A DNA stretch of 33,902 bases, taken from positions 1 to 33,902 of IMG/VR virus record IMGVR_UViG_3300012929_000036. The stretch is one strand, 5' to 3'. The first letter of the stretch is position 1; each line of letters begins with the position of its first letter. Below, one piece after another: positions 2,900 through 33,902 of this stretch. The translations under genes were made by a program, and so were the position numbers. The stretch is from a virus. A model generated the notes under the pieces. It searched no databases. It saw only the letters and a program-made list of their open reading frames with translations, and was not told the DNA's origin.

Positions 2900-5543
2900 T
2901 GGCTTCGTAAACCATCCGCTCCACTTTCTGCTGTCGCAGCTTCATGATCTGCCGCCCCGCATAGGGGCCATGCGCCAGCGGTCCTGTGATCCCGCGGTAG
3001 ACCGTCAAGAGGCTGTCAAGCATCGTCCCCCTGCCCTGACCAGCGATGACGGCCGTCCCGGAACTGCCGACAGTAATCGGCTTGCGCTGTGACATTTCGA
3101 CGGCATCGCGCAACAGATTCATGTCCTTCACATACTGAGGTCCGAACAACATCTTCAGTTTTGTGTCGTTCGCCTCTATGTAGGCGTCCACCTTGGGAAA
3201 CGAGAGTGCTCTTTCCTTCGTCGCAGGATCATATCCCGTGATCTTCGGTCCCATGTCTTCGATCACCGCGCCACGAAGAGCAGCCTTCGACGTATCGGGA
3301 GCGATGACCATGAACTGCGCGAGTTCGCCATCGGAGCCTTCAGCCCATAGCCGCTGAAATACCTTCTGCGGCTCCATGCTCGTCAGTTTGCCGCCGAATG
3401 ACTCCTTGATCTTCGCCTCGACAGTATTCTGTTCGGCGGCTGCCTTCTGAAACCCTAACTCTGCCGTGTTGGCATTGCTCAACAGTTTGAAATCCGTCGG
3501 GCTGAAGTACGGTTTCGCCATGTCGCCGTACTTTTGCATCCATTCCGCATGGCGAGCCGCATCCACGCGCCCCTGGACAAGAACTTTCTGGCGGTAGTCG
3601 TTGAAAATCGCGGTTCGGAATGCCGCCTTCGCCTCGGGGCTCTTGTCGAGCAGATAGGCCGTCTGGTCCGCCAACTCGCGGTCACCGCTTTCGAACACCT
3701 GTTTGAAGACTTCGCTCGGCCGCGACACTACGGCATCATGAACTGTACTGTTCAACAGCCCGATCTGCGATTTGTATTGTGCCTTAAAGGCGTCGTAGGC
3801 GGCGGCACCAGGAGTGCCCGCCAGCGATTGATTAATATCGCTTTCTAGAGCAGCAGCGAGACGATTATAAGTTGCTGCGTCGGGAGCAGTCGTCGACTGA
3901 TCTTTTGTCGCCTTCCGCGCCAATTTCTTGAGCGTCGAAACGGCATCCCATGCTTGCTGGAAAGTCCACTTGGTATTGGGGTCAAAGATAGCAGATGGCG
4001 TTCCCGGAGTCCCAGGCGTGAAAGTCGTAATCCGCGTTCCCGGCCGCGTTCCCAACTTCACGACCTTGCTGGATGGAGTGCCGCCGAATGATGATGGTCC
4101 CACCACCGTTTTCTTGTCAGTCTGCAACCCCGAGAAGATCGCATCCCTGGTTTCCTGACTGAATGTCTTCGCGGTATCTGACAAATTTGTATTCGCTATC
4201 GGCAAGCCACTTGTGGCTGCATCGACCTTGCCAGCCTCCTGTGAAGCCCATTCCTTAAATGCATCCTGCTCCCCAAGCAGCGTATTCGTGACGCGGCTAC
4301 CGGCGACAGTCGGCGATCCCTGCGGCAACGCGCCAACCGCTGATTGTGCGCCGATATCAGCCTGCTGGGTTTGCGCCCCATAGCGTGCCTGCGTCTGCTG
4401 CTGCGGCAAAACGAGTTCGTTCTGAATCTGCGTCCCGGCCCCGTACCGGCTAGTCGGCGCCCCCTGCGGCTGATCGATCGCCTGCTTGAAGCCTCCGAGC
4501 GCCTGCTGTTGCTGCCGCCGCGCATTCAGCATCTCGGTCTGCCGAATGCCTGGCGTGCGATACTCCATCTCGGCGACATTCAGGAGCGGTTGGTCGCCCG
4601 TCGCCTGGGCGAGATTGTATTTCAACGGCGGCCCGCGTCCGGTCTTGTTGATCTGCGATTCGATATCCTTCGCCGCCTGTTGTCCGCCGGCATAGGCAGC
4701 CTCGTGAACCGGCGTGAAAACGCGCCCCTTAATGAAATTCGCAATGACCTTGACGGACCTTGCGGCGACAGATAGGGCGGCACCCCCGGCGATCGTCAGG
4801 CCCGCCGCGATGCCAGCTGCTTTGGCGATGTCCTCATCCGACATGCCTTCATTGACGCCCATCTCGCGTCCGATCGCAAGGCGGGCGGCTTCGGTGGCGA
4901 ATGCCGCCGCTCCGCCGGCAGCCGCCGTTCCTACGCCGCCCGTGAACGCCGCCGCGCCCGTGGTGATCGCGCCCTCCAATCCCATCTGGCCGATCATGGC
5001 GGCATTGCGCTTGAAATCTCCAACATCCGGACCAAGCGCATTGACGAGGGCGAAGCGTTTCGACGCTGGATCATAGTATTCCAGTTCGCCTGTCTTAGGC
5101 CCCGTTCGGACGGCGATATGTTGGCGCTCGATGGGCGGAGCGCCCTTGTTGGCATCTAAAGTCAGTTCGTTGGAGAGATATTTTTGGGCGCTGGGAGAAT
5201 TCATGTCATAGGCGAATGAAAGTCCCCATTGACCGACCGGAGCCGCTTTGTCCGAGATCACGCCGGCTGCGGCGGCTTTCGTTGCAGCCTCCGACGGCTG
5301 CACACGGAACCCACGCGGCGCAAAGGTGGCTTGAGGAGTTGGCAGAGGAGATTCATCGATCGGCGTGTACGGTCCCGGCGCTTGCTGCGGTTGGGATTGC
5401 TGGCCAAGATTCGCAGCCTTGAAACTCTCCGGCGTCCAACCCTTGCTTTTCAAATAGCCGTCGATGTCATCGGGCGGCGCATTCTGCTGCATCATCTTGC
5501 GGACGTTCTGTTGCAAGATCGGTAGTTGCGTGAATTCGCTCAT
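2784..5543 (-). CDS. Large internal virion / DNA ejection protein
   Basis: Predicted 919-residue protein, the largest in the window. The N-terminal region is Gln/Pro-rich, then there is a Gly/Ala-rich hydrophobic zone (about residues 180-270, with repeated A-A-G-G patterns) that could insert into membrane, followed by a long Gln/Ala-rich helical body to about 915. Size, composition and position after two other Gln/Ala-rich virion proteins match podovirus internal (ejection) proteins that leave the capsid with the DNA and form a channel across the envelope. The ATG overlaps the preceding stop as ATGA. No lytic transglycosylase motif is evident to me. Exact family unassigned. Confidence 0.7.
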   Translation of the reverse strand: MSEFTQLPILQQNVRKMMQQNAPPDDIDGYLKSKGWTPESFKAANLGQQSQPQQAPGPYTPIDESPLPTPQATFAPRGFRVQPSEAATKAAAAGVISDKAAPVGQWGLSFAYDMNSPSAQKYLSNELTLDANKGAPPIERQHIAVRTGPKTGELEYYDPASKRFALVNALGPDVGDFKRNAAMIGQMGLEGAITTGAAAFTGGVGTAAAGGAAAFATEAARLAIGREMGVNEGMSDEDIAKAAGIAAGLTIAGGAALSVAARSVKVIANFIKGRVFTPVHEAAYAGGQQAAKDIESQINKTGRGPPLKYNLAQATGDQPLLNVAEMEYRTPGIRQTEMLNARRQQQQALGGFKQAIDQPQGAPTSRYGAGTQIQNELVLPQQQTQARYGAQTQQADIGAQSAVGALPQGSPTVAGSRVTNTLLGEQDAFKEWASQEAGKVDAATSGLPIANTNLSDTAKTFSQETRDAIFSGLQTDKKTVVGPSSFGGTPSSKVVKLGTRPGTRITTFTPGTPGTPSAIFDPNTKWTFQQAWDAVSTLKKLARKATKDQSTTAPDAATYNRLAAALESDINQSLAGTPGAAAYDAFKAQYKSQIGLLNSTVHDAVVSRPSEVFKQVFESGDRELADQTAYLLDKSPEAKAAFRTAIFNDYRQKVLVQGRVDAARHAEWMQKYGDMAKPYFSPTDFKLLSNANTAELGFQKAAAEQNTVEAKIKESFGGKLTSMEPQKVFQRLWAEGSDGELAQFMVIAPDTSKAALRGAVIEDMGPKITGYDPATKERALSFPKVDAYIEANDTKLKMLFGPQYVKDMNLLRDAVEMSQRKPITVGSSGTAVIAGQGRGTMLDSLLTVYRGITGPLAHGPYAGRQIMKLRQQKVERMVYEAIKDPDLLHQLVELRTVAPGTKKAAAILGQLGGLGLYQQ

Positions 5544-14835: not shown

Positions 14836-14862
14836 GTTATATCTTGATAAGACACCTGTCAA
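14836..14862 (-). promoter_or_regulatory. Candidate promoter of the tail-fibre gene
   Basis: Minus-strand TTGACA (14857-14862) and TATAAC (14836-14841), separated by 15 bp. Both hexamers are close to consensus although the spacer is 1-2 bp short. It is placed just upstream of the AGGAG ribosome site at 14828-14832, so a transcript from it would begin just before or within the ribosome-binding region. It overlaps the plus-strand promoter of the HNH gene. Confidence 0.45.
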
Positions 14863-14872
14863 GGCATATCAT
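14844..14872 (+). promoter_or_regulatory. Candidate promoter of the HNH endonuclease gene
   Basis: Plus-strand TTGATA (14844-14849), a 17-bp spacer and TATCAT (14867-14872), both five of six matches to consensus. The ATG at 14879 is the seventh base after the -10 box, so transcription would start at or beside the start codon and give a leaderless mRNA. This fits the absence of a usable Shine-Dalgarno site before that ATG. Confidence 0.55.
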
Positions 14873-14878
14873 GACAAC

Positions 14879-15535
14879 ATGCCAAAATTCGAAGACCTGA
14901 CCGGGAAGCAGTTCGGCAGATGGATCGTGTGGTCTCGCGGCCCCGATTATCGCAAGGGCATCCCTCGGTGGGCCTGCATCTGCGAGTGTGGGACGAAAGG
15001 AATAGTCCGCGCTGGAGCACTCAAATCCGGCCAATCCCAATCCTGTGGGTGTCTCAATGTTGATGTGCATCGTCAGCTCTGCATCGAGAGGAACACAACG
15101 CATGGCGCTAGCCGAACTCGTACTTACCGAGTTTGGTGTGGCATGATTGATCGTTGCGAAAATCCCAAGGCTCCGAAATGGCCTAGATACGGCGGCCGTG
15201 GGATCAAGATTTGCCCGCGATGGCGCCAAAGTTTCGAATCGTTCGCGACCGATATGGGAGAATGCTTCCCCGGCATGACCATCGACAGAGTCGATAATTC
15301 CAAAGGATACGACCTCGGCAACTGCCGGTGGGCAAGCCAGCGAGAACAGCAGAACAACCGCAGTGACAATCGCATAATCGAGCTTGGTAACCAACGAATG
15401 ACATTGGCGCAGTGGTCGCGCCACACTGGCATCGGTCGCAAAACGATTGCCCACAGGCTTGATATCGGTTGGCCTCCCCACAAGGCGCTCTCGACGGAAA
15501 AGTTCGGACGGTCCGGCAAACCGCTGCATCGTTAA
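14879..15535 (+). CDS. Freestanding HNH homing-type endonuclease
   Basis: Predicted 218-residue HNH endonuclease, antisense to the surrounding structural genes. Cys33, Cys35, Cys37, Cys56 and Cys58 form a zinc-binding N-terminal module; the nuclease core follows with H75, Y-G-G-R-G-I (104-109), D-R-V-D-N (136-140), Y144, N-C-R-W (148-151) and E-Q-Q-N-N (156-160). The C-terminal part (about 173-203, M-T-L-A-Q-W-S-R-H-T-G-I) is a helix-turn-helix-like DNA-binding repeat typical of homing enzymes. It sits between fibre and adaptor genes, and its stop overlaps the adaptor stop by 4 nt. It would cut a DNA target, probably in phages lacking the insertion. Confident family call. Confidence 0.9.
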   Translation: MPKFEDLTGKQFGRWIVWSRGPDYRKGIPRWACICECGTKGIVRAGALKSGQSQSCGCLNVDVHRQLCIERNTTHGASRTRTYRVWCGMIDRCENPKAPKWPRYGGRGIKICPRWRQSFESFATDMGECFPGMTIDRVDNSKGYDLGNCRWASQREQQNNRSDNRIIELGNQRMTLAQWSRHTGIGRKTIAHRLDIGWPPHKALSTEKFGRSGKPLHR

Positions 15536-16488
15536 GCCCACCGCTCCATGCCCCAATTGTTGTTCGGGCTGACATCGCTGCGGATCTGCAACGGGCCGCC
15601 GCCGTAGCGGTCCAGTTCGTTCTGGTCCTGCAACCCCCTCACGGCCGACAGGTAGAGCTGGTGCCACTCGCGCCAGTTCGGTAGCTCCGGCAGGTTGTTC
15701 TGGAACCGCTGCATCTCCAGCAGCGTGCCGTAGAGGTACACGTCCGGCTTGTTGGTCAGCATCCAGTTCGTCGCCTGCGTTCCCGACAGCGCCTCGAATT
15801 TCTTCCAATAGAGGAACTTGATGTTGTTGTTGGCGTCCGGTGCCGGCCCCAACACGACAGTATCGGCCTCTATCGTATATGCCTTCGGCGTCGCGTTCAC
15901 AGCGCCGAGCCAGCGTGCCCAGAAGTCGTTCGATGCTATGAAGTTCGGCGTCGTCGGCGGGCTGGTATCAATGAACATGCGGCGCTCGGCCAAGAACCGC
16001 GATGGCAACGGGAATCCTGGGCCGGAGAGTTTCACGTAGTTCGTGCCGTCGTAGTAGACAGTGGCGTTCGTGCCTGCCAGGAATTCGCCGCCGACCAAGG
16101 CTGCGGAGTCCGGCGCTCGCACGACGGATTTCGCGCCCGTGCCCTGGATGTTGAGAGTCGCAGCGCCCGTGTTGGTCAGGCCGGTGCCGACCGGAAATGT
16201 CACAAGCCGTCCCGTGGTCAGCGTATAACTCGCGAGAGCGACGGTCTGTGCATTGGCGGACCCGGCAGACGTGCCGCCGGTCTGCGACTGTCCGGCGATG
16301 ATGTCGATCGCCGCTTCCATCGGCCGGATACGCAAAGGCGGCGATGGGAATGGCGTCATCGACCCCGCGCCGTAGTGGATGCGCGACTCACATAGCGCGA
16401 TGGCGTCGACGATCTGTGCCGTCAGGTCGGAGCGGACCAGATAGTCCGCAACCGACGCCTGGAGGTCACTATAGGTGGCGAAAGGCAC
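15532..16488 (-). CDS. SU10-type head-tail adaptor with inserted fibre domain
   Basis: Predicted 318-residue protein. The start P-F-A-T-Y-S-D-L-Q-x-S-V-A-D-Y-L-x-R-S-D-L and the C-terminal Y-L-Y-G-T-L-L-E-M plus G-G-P-L-Q-I-R are those of podovirus adaptor proteins that join portal to tail. Usual members are about 200-220 residues; the excess is an insertion at about residues 63-155 (T-G-G-T-S-A-G-S to Y-D-G-T-N-Y-V-K-L-S-G) with the pattern of phage fibre beta domains (T-N-T-G-A-A-T-L-N-I-Q-G). The start is GTG at 16488, sharing its first base with the upstream TAG stop; the longer frame upstream is a shadow. Confidence 0.85.
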   Translation of the reverse strand: MPFATYSDLQASVADYLVRSDLTAQIVDAIALCESRIHYGAGSMTPFPSPPLRIRPMEAAIDIIAGQSQTGGTSAGSANAQTVALASYTLTTGRLVTFPVGTGLTNTGAATLNIQGTGAKSVVRAPDSAALVGGEFLAGTNATVYYDGTNYVKLSGPGFPLPSRFLAERRMFIDTSPPTTPNFIASNDFWARWLGAVNATPKAYTIEADTVVLGPAPDANNNIKFLYWKKFEALSGTQATNWMLTNKPDVYLYGTLLEMQRFQNNLPELPNWREWHQLYLSAVRGLQDQNELDRYGGGPLQIRSDVSPNNNWGMERWA

Positions 16489-29406: not shown

Positions 29407-29512
29407 CTGTTGGCCTGTTGGTGTGTTGGGGTATGTATATACCAACACCCCCCAACAGCCCCCAACACCCCCAACAGATTTTGATTAACACATTGATTTA
29501 TCATTGATAACC
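29407..29512. repeat. Inverted-repeat block plus AT-rich TTGAT repeats
   Basis: Between the convergent stops at 29247 and 29501. The left side has TGTTGG at three places (29408-29428), the right has CCAACA four times (29442-29477). The core can fold as GTGTTGG(GG)TAT-GTAT-ATACCAACAC (29423-29448, broken for length). It is followed by an AT-rich stretch (29478-29512) with three TTGAT repeats running into the end of the helicase gene. A bidirectional terminator is the simplest explanation; repeats plus an AT-rich block beside a RepA-type gene also fit an origin. Confidence 0.6.
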
Positions 29513-30550
29513 ACCGCCAACAAGATAGTACTTGCCGTTCCCGAGTCGCGAAATCTCATCCTTCCTGTGCATCTGTCCAAGCAACCATCTGATTGAACTA
29601 CGGTTCTTTCCAATCGCCGCCGCGATTTCCACTGGCGTCATGGGTTCAATGTTCGCTTTTAGTACTTTTATGATGTCCAGGCGGGCTTCCGACTTCCTGA
29701 AATCCTCGGCCGGCCCCAACAGGGTGACGCATCCGGTATCCGGATCGAATTGGAGCGCCACCGAGCGCTCGGCAACGTCCCTCCCGCGGATATGCAGCTC
29801 GCCCGTCAGGGACCCTGCCGCACGCTCCAGTACGAGCGTCGTGTCGGCGGCGCCTGACAGTCCCATCGTGCCGCTGATCCGCATCACCGGGTCCTCGGCC
29901 GCGCCCTTATTCGTGTGATGCACCAGCAGCATCGGCAAGCCGTTGTCGCGGGCCAGCTTGTGGAACGGCGTGATCGTCGCATAATCCTGGTCGTAGACGC
30001 CCTTGGCGCGGTCCTGCGCGCCCTTCACCTTGGCCAGTACGTCAACGATAACCAGACGCGGATTCTCGCGCGAGGCTATCCAACCCTCGATTCTATCCAT
30101 CCCGCCCTGGTCGAGCGTCGCCCATTCGGTGGCTATTTCCAGCCCGTGCGGGGCCGGCGCGCCCTGCAAAATGGCGCGCATCCGATCGGCTATCCGGCGC
30201 TCCGAGTCCTCAAGCGCCAAGTAGAGCACGTCCCCAGGCTCGCAGGGAACGCAGCCAAGGGCCGAGCCGCCACGCGCCACCGCCAGTGCCCAATCCAGGA
30301 CGATGAAGCTCTTGCCTCGGCTTTTAGGCCCCGCGAGAAGTGATACGCCCTCCGGCACGAAATTCGGAATTGCCCACCGGATCGGCGCATACTTCGTTCC
30401 CGCGATGTCGTCCGCCCGCCGCGTCGGCAGCGGAACCGTCGAATAACCGTTCCCCTTGTAGCGCGCCGCGTTGAGCCGCAGATTCGCCTCAAACGTCCGC
30501 GACGCCGATTTAGAGGCGAGCGGCCTTGTCGGCTTGTCGCCGAACGCCAC
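29501..30550 (-). CDS. RepA-type AAA helicase / DNA replication ATPase
   Basis: Predicted 349-residue RecA-fold ATPase. G-P-K-S-R-G-K-S (about 74-81) is Walker A; L-Y-L-A-L-E-D-S (about 109-116) and R-L-V-I-V-D (165-170) give the acidic Walker B region; L-L-V-H-H-T-N-K (about 208-215) is the RepA-type H-H-T motif. The C-terminal domain (about 255-349) includes a winged helix-like segment. This matches the AAA_25/RepA hexameric helicase family encoded by RSF1010-like replicons and many phages. It would unwind DNA for replication. Start is GTG 30550 with GGGA at 6 nt, or TTG 30562. It follows a methyltransferase with overlapping signals. Confidence 0.88.
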   Translation of the reverse strand: MAFGDKPTRPLASKSASRTFEANLRLNAARYKGNGYSTVPLPTRRADDIAGTKYAPIRWAIPNFVPEGVSLLAGPKSRGKSFIVLDWALAVARGGSALGCVPCEPGDVLYLALEDSERRIADRMRAILQGAPAPHGLEIATEWATLDQGGMDRIEGWIASRENPRLVIVDVLAKVKGAQDRAKGVYDQDYATITPFHKLARDNGLPMLLVHHTNKGAAEDPVMRISGTMGLSGAADTTLVLERAAGSLTGELHIRGRDVAERSVALQFDPDTGCVTLLGPAEDFRKSEARLDIIKVLKANIEPMTPVEIAAAIGKNRSSIRWLLGQMHRKDEISRLGNGKYYLVGGGYQ

Positions 30551-30552
30551 GG

Positions 30553-31038
30553 TCAGTCCCAACCCTTGAGCGCGCGATAGCTATGCCAAGCGATCGTGAC
30601 GGCACCCGATCCAATGAATAAATCCGTGAACTCGTCGCCAGCTTCGATGCCAATCGCATCGAACAGCCAATGACAAACTTTCTCCGGCTTCACGCCACAT
30701 AGGCCGCGCTTGAGTGTTATGTTCTCGGCACACCAATCCCGCACCGTTGGCATGGTGCGGTCGCCCTTGCGCCAGCCCCGGACGATGATCGGTTCCCAAG
30801 CATAGGCAACGCGGACGTTCGGCTTGAAGATCGCGAACGGCTTGACCCACGCGAATATCCGCACGTCTTCGGGACATAGCGGGAGAAGGTAGCGAAGGGA
30901 CGGACTCGACGCTGACAAAGCCCACGCGGCGTACTCCGAATCGAGCCGCTGAATCAACGCAGCATGGTCGACCTCATCGCAGCCGTAGAGTTTGCGCGCT
31001 TGCCCGACATATGGAGGGTCGGCGTATGCGAAGCGCAT
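30553..31038 (-). CDS. Orphan DNA methyltransferase (D-P-P-Y, beta-type order)
   Basis: Predicted 161-residue adenine/cytosine-N4 methyltransferase-like protein. D-P-P-Y is at residues 7-10, F-A-W-V-K-P-F near 62-68, W-E-P-I-I-V-R-G at 81-88, K-P-E-K-V-C-H-W-L-F-D at 117-127 and F-I-G-S-G-A-V at 141-147. The order (catalytic motif first, SAM-binding motif last) is of the permuted beta type. No restriction endonuclease is nearby, so it is an orphan enzyme for self-protection or gene control. The exact base and site cannot be told. The ATG is 2 nt after the upstream stop. Confidence 0.85.
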   Translation of the reverse strand: MRFAYADPPYVGQARKLYGCDEVDHAALIQRLDSEYAAWALSASSPSLRYLLPLCPEDVRIFAWVKPFAIFKPNVRVAYAWEPIIVRGWRKGDRTMPTVRDWCAENITLKRGLCGVKPEKVCHWLFDAIGIEAGDEFTDLFIGSGAVTIAWHSYRALKGWD

Positions 31039-31040
31039 GA

Positions 31041-31367
31041 TTAGGCGACCTTGGCGCTGTCCCTCGCCTGTTCAAGCTCCTGCCGCCATTTGAGCCGCTG
31101 CACTATCACCGTCTTGTGCGGCCCCGGATGAAATTCGCCGCAGTACCAGTTGTAGTCAATGCTCTGTGCGTCGTAAGGCTGCACATTCTCCCCGGTCGTG
31201 GCTGGTGCCCAGCGACGGCAGTAGCCCCAAGCGCGCGGCTCGACTCGCGGATCTTCCCAATAGCTCAGACAGCCGGCACACGATGGGATGTCCGAATCGC
31301 CGAGCTTCTCGACGAAATCCAACGTCGCGAGCAGACGGGACCACGATTCGGAATACGAGATAGCCAT
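31041..31367 (-). CDS. Cys4 zinc-binding-like protein under leader control
   Basis: Predicted 108-residue protein. C-A-G-C (about residues 30-33), Y-C-R-R-W (about 49-53) and W-Y-C-G-E-F (about 74-79) give four Cys with spacing similar to small phage zinc-ribbon-like proteins. The C-terminal tail is a charged helix (K-W-R-Q-E-L-E-Q-A-R). The ATG at 31367 has AGGGAG 6 nt upstream; this ribosome site is predicted to be base-paired in a pseudoknot (31374-31428). A weak TTG start at 31373 is less likely. It is the first gene after that leader; methyltransferase and helicase follow. Confidence 0.65.
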   Translation of the reverse strand: MAISYSESWSRLLATLDFVEKLGDSDIPSCAGCLSYWEDPRVEPRAWGYCRRWAPATTGENVQPYDAQSIDYNWYCGEFHPGPHKTVIVQRLKWRQELEQARDSAKVA

Positions 31368-31373
31368 TGACAA

Positions 31374-31428
31374 CTCCCTGATGATTACAGCGGGCGGGAT
31401 CGCCTCAGGGAGAGAGCGATATCCCGCC
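31374..31428 (-). ncRNA. Predicted 5' leader pseudoknot sequestering a ribosome site
   Basis: In the minus-strand mRNA a stem forms between 31416-31428 and 31393-31403 (GGCGGGAT plus CGC arms with a 2-nt bulge). Its loop (31404-31415) contains CTCCCTGA (31405-31412), fully complementary over 8 bp to TCAGGGAG (31374-31381), which includes the Shine-Dalgarno sequence of the downstream gene. Together these give an H-type pseudoknot with an 11-nt linker. It could act as a translational switch bound by a ligand or protein. Structure is inferred from complementarity; no covariation was tested. Confidence 0.55.
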
Positions 31429-31469
31429 GCGCGTGGCCGAATCTGGCGGAGGATCAGGCCGCCACGGCC

Positions 31470-31498
31470 AATCTATCTAAATCAAAATCCTGTTACAA
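31470..31498 (-). promoter_or_regulatory. Candidate promoter for the pseudoknot leader
   Basis: Minus-strand TTGTAA (31493-31498), 17-bp spacer and TAGATT (31470-31475), each four of six consensus matches, in an AT-rich patch. It would start a transcript near 31463 with a leader of about 95 nt holding the pseudoknot before the ATG at 31367. Supports, but does not prove, a dedicated leader for the Cys-rich gene, methyltransferase and helicase. Confidence 0.4.
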
Positions 31499-31732
31499 GT
31501 TCCGCAACGCCCGCAATGCTTCGCTGTAATTGGCCCGCGAATCGACCGCCCGCCATTCGTTGGCCCGGCAGTTCAACTCATGGACCTTCAACACGATCGA
31601 AGCCAACGGCCGCCCGAGCGCCCGTGCGATCTCGCGGTTTCGCTTCCTGTCGGCATGGAGAATCAGCAACACGCAGAGATCGGATTTGGTCCATCGATGG
31701 CCGCGGCCGATGCGCGGCCCGGCTGGCCTCAA
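31493..31732 (-). CDS. GcrA/SANT-like HTH protein, TTG start
   Basis: Predicted 79-residue protein whose middle (about residues 12-55) reads H-R-W-T-K-S-D-L-C-V-L-L, R-E-I-A-R-A-L-G-R-P-L-A-S-I and V-H-E-L, a three-helix Myb/SANT or GcrA-type DNA-binding fold. I start it at TTG 31732 because it overlaps the preceding stop as TTGA; a longer frame would run 115 nt into the preceding gene with Arg/Ala-rich sequence. It lies next to another HTH gene. Likely a transcription regulator, specifics unknown. Confidence 0.55.
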   Translation of the reverse strand: MRPAGPRIGRGHRWTKSDLCVLLILHADRKRNREIARALGRPLASIVLKVHELNCRANEWRAVDSRANYSEALRALRNL

Positions 31733-31953
31733 GGCTTCTCGGTCGAACCAGAGTCGGGCGCTGGAATCGTCAACTCGCCGGTCAGCAGCCGCCGCATAAT
31801 GTCCTCCGTAACGGCGTCGTAATCCGTCGGCAGCGTCTTCCATTTCCGCACTCCCGCGATATAGTCTGCGATCTCGCCGTCCGTCATGACGCGCTCGCTC
31901 ACAACTCTGTCTGTCACCGTGACGCGCCCCAAATCATCACTCGGGCTGGACAT
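31729..31953 (-). CDS. Hypothetical early protein
   Basis: Predicted 74-residue acidic protein, M-S-S-P-S-D-D-L-G-R-V-T-V-T-D-R, with a central helix (G-E-I-A-D-Y-I-A-G-V-R-K-W) and no known motif. AGGTGG lies 5 nt before the ATG at 31953. It overlaps the GcrA-like gene end by 17 nt and ends in the TTGA overlap with the next gene. Unknown function, in the early regulatory cluster. Confidence 0.55.
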   Translation of the reverse strand: MSSPSDDLGRVTVTDRVVSERVMTDGEIADYIAGVRKWKTLPTDYDAVTEDIMRRLLTGELTIPAPDSGSTEKP

Positions 31954-32296
31954 GGCCACCTATAGCCGGATAGCAGAGTCGGCAATGCGCCAGGCAATAC
32001 GGCTTGTCGAGAAATACCGGCAATCCACAGAACGTCCGCACGGCGTCCATCGCCTTGCCGAGCGGGTAGCGGCATTGGCCGCGCGCCAGCCGTTCCAGCG
32101 CCGCCCCGCCGCCATTCACGACAGCGTGCTTGCCGCTCCGCTCCTGCGTGCGCAGCAGCCCACGCCGGCCGACGACGCCGAGCACCGCATCCCGCGAGAT
32201 ACCGAACTTCCAGGCGATGGCCGAGGCCCGATGCTTCGCGATCCACAGCGCCGCGATCTCATCATTCCGCTCGCGGTGGCGCTCCTGGGATTTCAT
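31937..32296 (-). CDS. GcrA-like regulator
   Basis: Predicted 119-residue protein. The N-terminal helices (E-I-A-A-L-W-I-A-K-H-R-A-S-A-I-A-W-K-F-G-I-S-R-D-A-V, broken for length) form the GcrA-like HTH, and the C-terminal part has C-R-Y-P (about 73-76), F-C-G-L-P-V (about 87-92) and P-Y-C-L-A-H-C (about 97-103), the characteristic GcrA zinc-like ending. GcrA of Alphaproteobacteria activates promoters with CcrM-methylated GANTC. The ATG at 32296 overlaps the DUF1064 stop (ATGA). A phage homologue could redirect host cell-cycle transcription. Family call fairly strong, role inferred. Confidence 0.75.
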   Translation of the reverse strand: MKSQERHRERNDEIAALWIAKHRASAIAWKFGISRDAVLGVVGRRGLLRTQERSGKHAVVNGGGAALERLARGQCRYPLGKAMDAVRTFCGLPVFLDKPYCLAHCRLCYPAIGGHVQPE

Positions 32297-32664
32297 GCCG
32301 GAATGATCCGCAGCTCGTGGTCCGGATACAACGCGCGGAACAGCTTGGCCTTGAGCTTGAACAATGTCGTAGCGCATCCCTTGCAATCTTCCGCTACTTC
32401 GGCCCCTTTTTCGGTATAGGAAAAGTCAGCTTCGTACTCGCCGACCTTGATGCCGTTGACGACGAACGGATAGCGCGAGTGAATGCGCAGGTTGTCGATT
32501 CTCTTGCCCTTTAGGAGCAGCTTGAGTTCCCGATACCGCCGCCACTCGGCCTCGCTGTCGAACGAAAATCCGTCCTCCTTGCATCGCCGATTCTTATATT
32601 TGCTTGGCTTCGGCCGCTTGATGAGTCGCCGCGCATCGGGCGCGGCGATGGTCTTAACCATCAT
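32293..32664 (-). CDS. DUF1064 nuclease-like protein
   Basis: Predicted 123-residue protein of the DUF1064 family found in many phages. Signature residues are S-K-Y-K-N-R-R (21-27), F-D-S-E-A-E-W-R-R-Y (35-44), L-R-I-H-S-R-Y-P-F (about 59-67), Y-E-A-D-F-S-Y (77-83) and E-D-C-K-G (92-96). The E-A-D and D-x-K pair resemble the PD-(D/E)xK nuclease core of Holliday junction resolvase-like enzymes, a hypothesis for this family. Two ATGs are adjacent (32664 and 32661). It sits between a Cys-rich gene and the GcrA-like gene, both with ATGA overlaps. Confidence 0.82.
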   Translation of the reverse strand: MMVKTIAAPDARRLIKRPKPSKYKNRRCKEDGFSFDSEAEWRRYRELKLLLKGKRIDNLRIHSRYPFVVNGIKVGEYEADFSYTEKGAEVAEDCKGCATTLFKLKAKLFRALYPDHELRIIPA

Positions 32665-33125
32665 GACTTCATGGCCTCGTCCATGCGCGCAATCACGTAT
32701 GTCTGCGACTCGCCAGCGGACAGGCCGTCGCCAAGCGGCGTTATCAAACCGCTTTTTTGGAGGGCCGCGAAACAGACCGGCGAAATCTTCCGGCCCGTGC
32801 TCAGCCGGTACTCGATCTCCCGCGACATCTCCTCGCGCACAACCGGGAGGATCGTCTTAACAATCTCTGCGCCGGCTTCAATCTGATCGAACACGCCGGC
32901 TTGGTGACGGCTAAGAACGATGCCCCGGCGCGTTCGATCCTGCGCGCGATCGGCACTATCGTGCCATTCCTCCAGCGTCGTTTCAAAGCCATCGCAATAC
33001 CCCTGTATGTCCGTCACCACCTTGTAGCGTGGTGACGCCTGGTTGGTGCAGCGGCCGTTGTACTGGTAACCGCGCACGGATGAATCACGTTGATGGAACC
33101 GACAGGTGCCGCACGAATCGCTCAT
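32661..33125 (-). CDS. Cys-rich N-terminus early protein
   Basis: Predicted 154-residue protein. The first 50 residues carry C-G-T-C-R-F-H (5-11), C27 and a late C44 in G-Y-C-D-G-F, a four-Cys metal-binding-like module related in pattern to the 108-residue protein at 31041-31367. The remainder (about 55-154) is an alpha-helical region (R-R-G-I-V-L-S-R-H-Q, I-E-A-G-A-E-I-V-K-T-I-L) without known family. The ATG overlaps the regulator stop (ATGA), and the stop overlaps the DUF1064 start. Possibly a nucleic-acid-binding early protein. Confidence 0.65.
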   Translation of the reverse strand: MSDSCGTCRFHQRDSSVRGYQYNGRCTNQASPRYKVVTDIQGYCDGFETTLEEWHDSADRAQDRTRRGIVLSRHQAGVFDQIEAGAEIVKTILPVVREEMSREIEYRLSTGRKISPVCFAALQKSGLITPLGDGLSAGESQTYVIARMDEAMKS

Positions 33126-33343
33126 GCCGCCGACTCTCTATCGTCGTAGGCGCGCATCCAATCGCGCACGCGCACAACCGTGCTGGGGAGCGACTCGGCG
33201 CCGCGCCGCATGTTGAATACGAACTCCGTCTTGTTGACGGCTTCCTTGCCGAGCCGGCGCGCGCTCATGCCGGGTGTGCGGGCGATGAACGACTCGACCT
33301 CGGCCTTGAAGATTTCCCAATCGGTCTGCGATTTCTTTGCCAT
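33122..33343 (-). CDS. Small HTH regulator (Cro/CI-like)
   Basis: Predicted 73-residue protein, M-A-K-K-S-Q-T-D-W-E-I-F-K, with M-S-A-R-R-L-G-K-E-A-V-N (about 26-37) and F-V-F-N-M-R-R-G-A-E-S-L-P-S (about 41-54) typical of a short helix-turn-helix protein family seen in alphaproteobacterial phages and genomes (G-x-S-x-R-x-L-G-x-x-A, then x-x-R-x-G-x-x-P). It starts the minus-strand early operon, and a divergent gene lies upstream, the usual place for a repressor or Cro. The ATG at 33343 has no ribosome site, fitting a leaderless mRNA. A TTG 21 nt upstream is unlikely. Confidence 0.65.
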   Translation of the reverse strand: MAKKSQTDWEIFKAEVESFIARTPGMSARRLGKEAVNKTEFVFNMRRGAESLPSTVVRVRDWMRAYDDRESAA

Positions 33344-33351
33344 GGCTGCGG

Positions 33352-33380
33352 ACAATACGGCCAAAAAAATGTTCCGTCAA
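33352..33380 (-). promoter_or_regulatory. Early promoter of the HTH regulator, leaderless
   Basis: Minus-strand TTGACG (33375-33380), 17-bp spacer containing a T-run, and TATTGT (33352-33357). The start codon at 33343 begins 9 bases after the -10 box, so the mRNA would have zero to three leader bases. No Shine-Dalgarno sequence is present. The layout is like the leaderless cI transcript of lambda. Confidence 0.55.
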
Positions 33381-33794: not shown

Positions 33795-33815
33795 GTCCCT
33801 GATTTCGTCAGGGAC
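33795..33815 (+). terminator. Hairpin after the DUF6948 gene
   Basis: Perfect 8-bp inverted repeat GTCCCTGA (33795-33802) and TCAGGGAC (33808-33815) with a 5-nt loop, 14 nt after the stop. It is stable and well placed to end the plus-strand transcript, but no T-run follows; instead its right arm merges into the tandem G-rich repeat. It could be a terminator without a U-tract or a structural element. Confidence 0.5.
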
Positions 33816-33902
33816 GGGTACGGGGACGGGTACGGGTACGGGGACGGGTACGGGTACGGGGACGGGTCCGGGTCCGGGTACGGGGACGGGTACGGGGACG
33901 GG
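33811..33902. repeat. G-rich 6-bp tandem repeat array at window edge
   Basis: About 90 bp built from GGGTAC and GGGGAC (with two GGGTCC variants) in tandem, running off the end of the window. It has runs of three or four G every six bases, enough for G-quadruplexes on the plus strand. The array begins in the right arm of the hairpin at 33795-33815. In any frame it codes only short dipeptide repeats, so it is most likely non-coding. Confidence 0.85.

Follow-up and report, generated by a model that had tools for sequence, protein, structure and literature searches.

An untranslated leader in a phage early operon that could fold into an H-type pseudoknot over its Shine-Dalgarno sequence

The pseudoknot in the leader of gene 32 of phage T4 lies approximately 67 nt upstream of the start codon, where it nucleates binding of gp32, a zinc protein; a review from 2010 describes it as possibly the only viral pseudoknot involved in translational autoregulation (PMC3014915). 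Direct capture of a Shine-Dalgarno (SD) sequence by a pseudoknot is established in other systems. In the operators of the Escherichia coli rpsO (S15) and alpha (S4) operons the first cistron has its SD region enclosed by the pseudoknot, which a known ribosomal protein stabilises and which entraps the 30S subunit (PMC10931766). In the preQ1-I type III and preQ1-II riboswitches a small pseudoknot is formed, one helix of which occludes the whole SD (PMC11625349).

The locus described here belongs to a virus record of 33,902 bases, and the window analysed is this whole record. It encodes an SU10-type portal protein (PF23899, E = 3.6e-206), together with terminase, scaffold and virion proteins. An early block on the minus strand (29501-33364) encodes DUF1064/resolvase-like, GcrA-like, HTH-like, Cys4, methyltransferase-like and AAA-type proteins, and its ORFs overlap or nearly touch each other, with the exception of a gap at 31368-31492 (minus strand) in which the candidate is located. 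This leader is a real untranslated gap, extending from the stop of the HTH ORF directly upstream (31493-31843, minus strand) to the start codon of Cys4 (31041-31367, minus strand), a 108-aa orphan ORF with four cysteines. No minus-strand ORF of at least 20 aa starts inside the gap, except for the TTG-extended version of Cys4; this TTG (31373), which is the start given by the ORF finder, lies immediately behind the SD, and the ATG at 31367 is the normally spaced start that yields the 108-aa product. On the plus strand, a 225-aa ORF (31288-31965) crosses the gap and is antisense to the HTH gene as well; such antisense ORFs are expected in GC-rich DNA. The minus strand contains no intrinsic terminator (a GC stem followed by a T run) between 31374 and 31500.

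Read 5' to 3' on the minus strand, the candidate consists of GGCGGGAT (31428-31421), AT (31420-31419), CGC (31418-31416), TCTCTCCCTGAG (31415-31404), GCGATCCCGCC (31403-31393), CGCTGTAATCA (31392-31382) and TCAGGGAG (31381-31374), followed by TTGTCA and the ATG (31367-31365). The 5' strand of stem 1 (31416-31428) is formed by the first three of these segments, with the AT bulged out, and its 3' strand by GCGATCCCGCC, giving 11 pairs and a 2-nt bulge. The 12-nt loop TCTCTCCCTGAG carries an anti-SD arm, CTCCCTGA (31405-31412), which is the exact complement, at 8/8 positions, of TCAGGGAG; the latter contains the SD, with its GGAG 6 nt before the ATG, and would form the 3' strand of stem 2. The linker CGCTGTAATCA, of 11 nt, would become loop 3. 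An independent repeat search returned both pairings as 8/8 inverted repeats (31374-31381/31405-31412 and 31393-31400/31421-31428), and neither a further copy of the perfect octamer in the window nor a second copy of the leader within the record was found. The stem, loop, complementary bases and linker had been described in a sequence-only reading, all coordinates and lengths of which proved to be correct, as did the H-type geometry that it assigned: stem 1 of 11 bp, loop 1 of 3 nt, an inter-stem gap of 1 nt, stem 2 of 8 bp and loop 3 of 11 nt. With a loop complementary to the downstream SD and with sterically possible loop lengths, the element has the layout of an SD-sequestering H-type pseudoknot. 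Such a pseudoknot could form, and from its geometry we soundly infer that the SD would be sequestered.

In being a phage leader with a candidate H-type pseudoknot upstream of the start codon, for which translational control is proposed, the locus resembles gene 32 of T4, T2 and RB69 (PMC3014915). Unlike the T4 pseudoknot, which excludes the SD, the second stem is here the SD itself, and the locus has neither an SSB gene nor phylogenetic support. The embrace of the SD region is shared with the rpsO and alpha-operon operators, but the gene downstream of the candidate is not ribosomal and comes without a known ligand protein. Similarly, the small size and the complete occlusion of the SD by a helix are reminiscent of the preQ1 riboswitches, although Rfam has no match for the candidate and the genes downstream of it include none for queuosine. 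Its stem 1 is also much longer than in the preQ1-I type III and preQ1-II riboswitches. The likeness to these known systems is one of architecture only. If the pseudoknot is real, it would give phages another case, unrelated to gene 32 and capturing the SD directly, and would point to convergent use of the motif; if it also regulates the early operon, it would join a very small set of viral pseudoknots known to govern the translation of genes of the DNA phages that carry them. At present it stands as a testable candidate and not as evidence of convergent motif use, and dedicated regulation is unproven.

The sequence-only reading had also placed a candidate promoter with a 17-bp spacer upstream of the stem. 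The candidate -35 hexamer TTGTAA (31493-31498, minus strand) and -10 hexamer TAGATT (31470-31475, minus strand) each match their consensus, TTGACA and TATAAT respectively, at 4/6 positions, and transcription would then start near 31463. The hexamers and their spacing are indeed present, and they lie inside an AT-rich island (31468-31503) which is one of only five in the window (30-mers with GC ≤ 0.30). The combined score of 8/12, however, is below the promoter-scan threshold and at chance level, with 194 such sites in the window versus 166-209 in shuffled sequences. An internal promoter at 31498-31470 is plausible from its sequence context.

The energetics of the pseudoknot were estimated by masking the stem 2 bases and adding the energy of the stem 2 duplex (-13.1 kcal/mol), a sum which includes only the duplex initiation cost of ∼4 kcal/mol and which, whichever of four transcript starts is assumed, is lower than the best nested fold by 4-6 kcal/mol. 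Pseudoknot penalties amount to ∼9-10 kcal/mol in the Dirks-Pierce model. Once the usual penalty is charged, the pseudoknot and the nested folds are predicted to be near break-even. In the masked fold, stem 1 is extended by GCG/CGC, using bases of the linker, and this extension would be sterically incompatible with stem 2. A further competitor is GGCGGCCTGAT (31453-31463, minus strand), which would form the extreme 5' end of the leader if the transcript begins near 31463. The best nested fold predicted for that 98-nt leader has this segment paired to the SD region, so that the SD has at least two possible partners. The predicted nested stability of the leader (z = -1.56, fourth of 32 starts in the genome; z = -2.0 for 98 nt) is unexceptional for this genome. 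Among the same 32 starts, the strongest nested fold relative to shuffles occurs upstream of an ORF at 14837-15808 (minus strand, start 15808), with z = -3.76.

To what extent such an arrangement arises by chance depends on which of its properties are counted. H-type geometries of equal quality, defined by 8 exact pairs, a stem of at least 10 and limited loops, occur three times on both strands of the window, versus a mean of 1.06 per dinucleotide-preserving shuffle, and at least one is found in 59% of the shuffled windows. The other two, at 3514 and 16306, are plus-strand sequences that lie opposite minus-strand ORFs. The geometry alone is unremarkable and no more than is expected by chance; the unusual point is that the candidate ends on the SD. 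In 20,000 shuffles of the leader around an unchanged SD, a complementarity of at least 8 nt combined with a stem of at least 10 bp was obtained with P = 0.0003, and one of at least 7 nt combined with at least 8 bp with P = 0.0046. Over the 47 minus-strand sites with an SD and a start codon, the family-wise probabilities are 0.003 and 0.09, of which the looser figure is the fairer, because the case supplied the strict thresholds post hoc and had itself been picked by eye from a 34-kb window. At other loci, four annotated phages included, a single one of 2,197 control SD and start sites reached the strict thresholds. The rarity of the SD coincidence is suggestive, not conclusive.

Homologous leaders were sought in viral contigs, annotated phages, plasmids, bacterial genomes and Rfam, and none was found. 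The 39-mer core has no exact DNA match in viral contigs. The loop and SD octamers occur in register before an ATG at 15 loci in 2.9 million viral contigs, nearly all of which fold simply as a hairpin in which the two octamers pair with one another; the reading frames downstream of these loci are 1-78 aa long, in most cases not long enough to be a gene, and none of the 15 has a leader like the candidate. No relatives of the Cys4 protein were found in viral contigs, genome contigs, annotated phages, plasmids and 398 genomes of one phylum, in scans which were seeded on exact peptide words and which a distant relative could escape, although such a relative would not settle the question of the leader anyway. 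Ten weak genome matches to Cys4 were obtained (E ≥ 0.001), and the five that were inspected are unrelated proteins or broken frames. A search for the W-x-C-G-E-F-x-P pattern at the DNA level returned chance hits. Neither the AAA nor the GcrA-like neighbours led to a homologous leader, and no Cys4 gene adjoins the methyltransferase relatives in any of the stretches fetched (19 viral relatives, ∼50% identity). The nearest relative found by portal and terminase searches (L021; terminase 85% over 356 aa) comprises only 4.8 kb and lacks the early region. No Rfam covariance model matched at its gathering score. A full-length alignment of the segment 31359-31489 (minus strand) to ar7, an alphaproteobacterial sRNA, scored 12.5 bits versus a cut-off of 60 (E = 1.7) and is probably a chance match arising from GC-rich hairpins.

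Taken as a whole, the best explanation, to which we give a little better than an even chance, is that a podovirus-like phage with a tightly packed early operon carries here an ordinary structured leader, in which the complementarity between the loop and the SD is coincidental or merely passive. The gap, which probably holds an internal promoter, would place a GC-rich hairpin immediately before the ribosome-binding site, and the octamer pairing would at most make the start site moderately less accessible. Such passive damping of translation would be common to the competing nested folds and would require no dedicated sensing or autoregulation. Of this account, the loop-SD complementarity, the stem, the place of the SD and the non-coding nature of the gap are shown, while use of the promoter, folding inside the cell and the lack of regulation are inferred. 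This explanation is preferred because two candidates of equal quality lie elsewhere in the window (3514 and 16306) and the majority of shuffled windows contain at least one, because the leader does not stand out by its nested fold, because several mutually exclusive folds with energies near break-even cover the SD, because no Rfam family is matched, and because a case picked by eye is subject to a look-elsewhere correction (0.003-0.09). It has to accommodate the rarity of the coincidence at the exact thresholds (0.0003, and 1 of 2,197 control sites), the sterically plausible loop lengths, and the presence of a gap that is unusual in an otherwise packed operon. The same rarity at SD sites, together with the exact 8/8 pairing, the 11 pairs of stem 1, the loops of 3 and 11 nt, the energy of the stem 2 duplex and the energy sum below the nested fold, argues for a functional pseudoknot which sequesters the SD and so sets or regulates how the Cys4-methyltransferase operon is translated, a reading which we consider possible but rather unlikely. 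Stem 1 would form first, co-transcriptionally, after which the loop would capture TCAGGGAG and the 30S subunit would be blocked until a protein, ribosome traffic or a ligand opened the knot, or such a factor might instead stabilise it. Against it stand the lack of any homologue, and hence of covariation, the post hoc thresholds, the parity in energy after a normal pseudoknot penalty, and the predicted outer extension of stem 1, which clashes with stem 2.

More specific proposals fare less well. A phage H-type pseudoknot that has the SD as its second stem and controls an early replication operon, perhaps with the four-cysteine protein encoded downstream as mediator, is in our judgement improbable. 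A specific riboswitch, or an operator to which the Cys4 protein binds to control its own synthesis, both of which the sequence-only reading had suggested, would be a special case of the functional pseudoknot, accounts for a small part of its probability and is quite improbable. It is favoured only by the position directly before the gene and by the analogy with rpsO and T4 gene 32, and a dedicated switch of either kind is unsupported: Rfam gives no match, no metabolic gene lies downstream, and Cys4 matches no family in Pfam, PHROGs or NCBIfam, known RNA- or ssDNA-binding families among them, nor does it have a usable predicted fold (pLDDT 44). Alternatively, the inverted repeat CTCCCTGA-23-TCAGGGAG might act as DNA, providing two half-sites for a regulator of the phage, for example the HTH protein whose gene lies just upstream. 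Its arms are perfect, their centres are 31 bp (approximately three turns) apart, it lies downstream of the candidate promoter, and the adjoining ORF is HTH-like (phrog_11013, E = 0.0011; phrog_31591 HTH, E = 0.032). However, the octamer has no other copies in the window, one arm is simply the SD, and the arms enclose half of the second inverted repeat, so that this reading is regarded as very improbable indeed.

Several further features of the early region were observed. The ORF that follows Cys4 (30553-31038, minus strand) encodes a small DNA methyltransferase-like protein of 161 aa, with weak matches to PF02086 and phrog_56, DPPY towards its N-terminus and, close to its C-terminus, an FxGxG-like motif, so that motif IV precedes motif I. 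The GcrA-like protein (31937-32386) matches PF07750 with E = 2.4e-10, and its presence, together with that of the HTH-like protein, suggests an alphaproteobacterial host. The motif GANTC is under-represented in the window (128 copies versus 168 expected); with so many copies, the one at 31439 in the leader is uninformative, and a link of the leader to GcrA and GANTC was set aside. Another early ORF (32661-33125), also without a family, shows a CxxC...C...C arrangement near its N-terminus, a layout resembling that of Cys4. At the end of the record (33811-33902) a GGGACGGGTACG-type tandem repeat with periods of 6, 12 and 18 bases is present, which may be a true repeat array or an assembly stop point.
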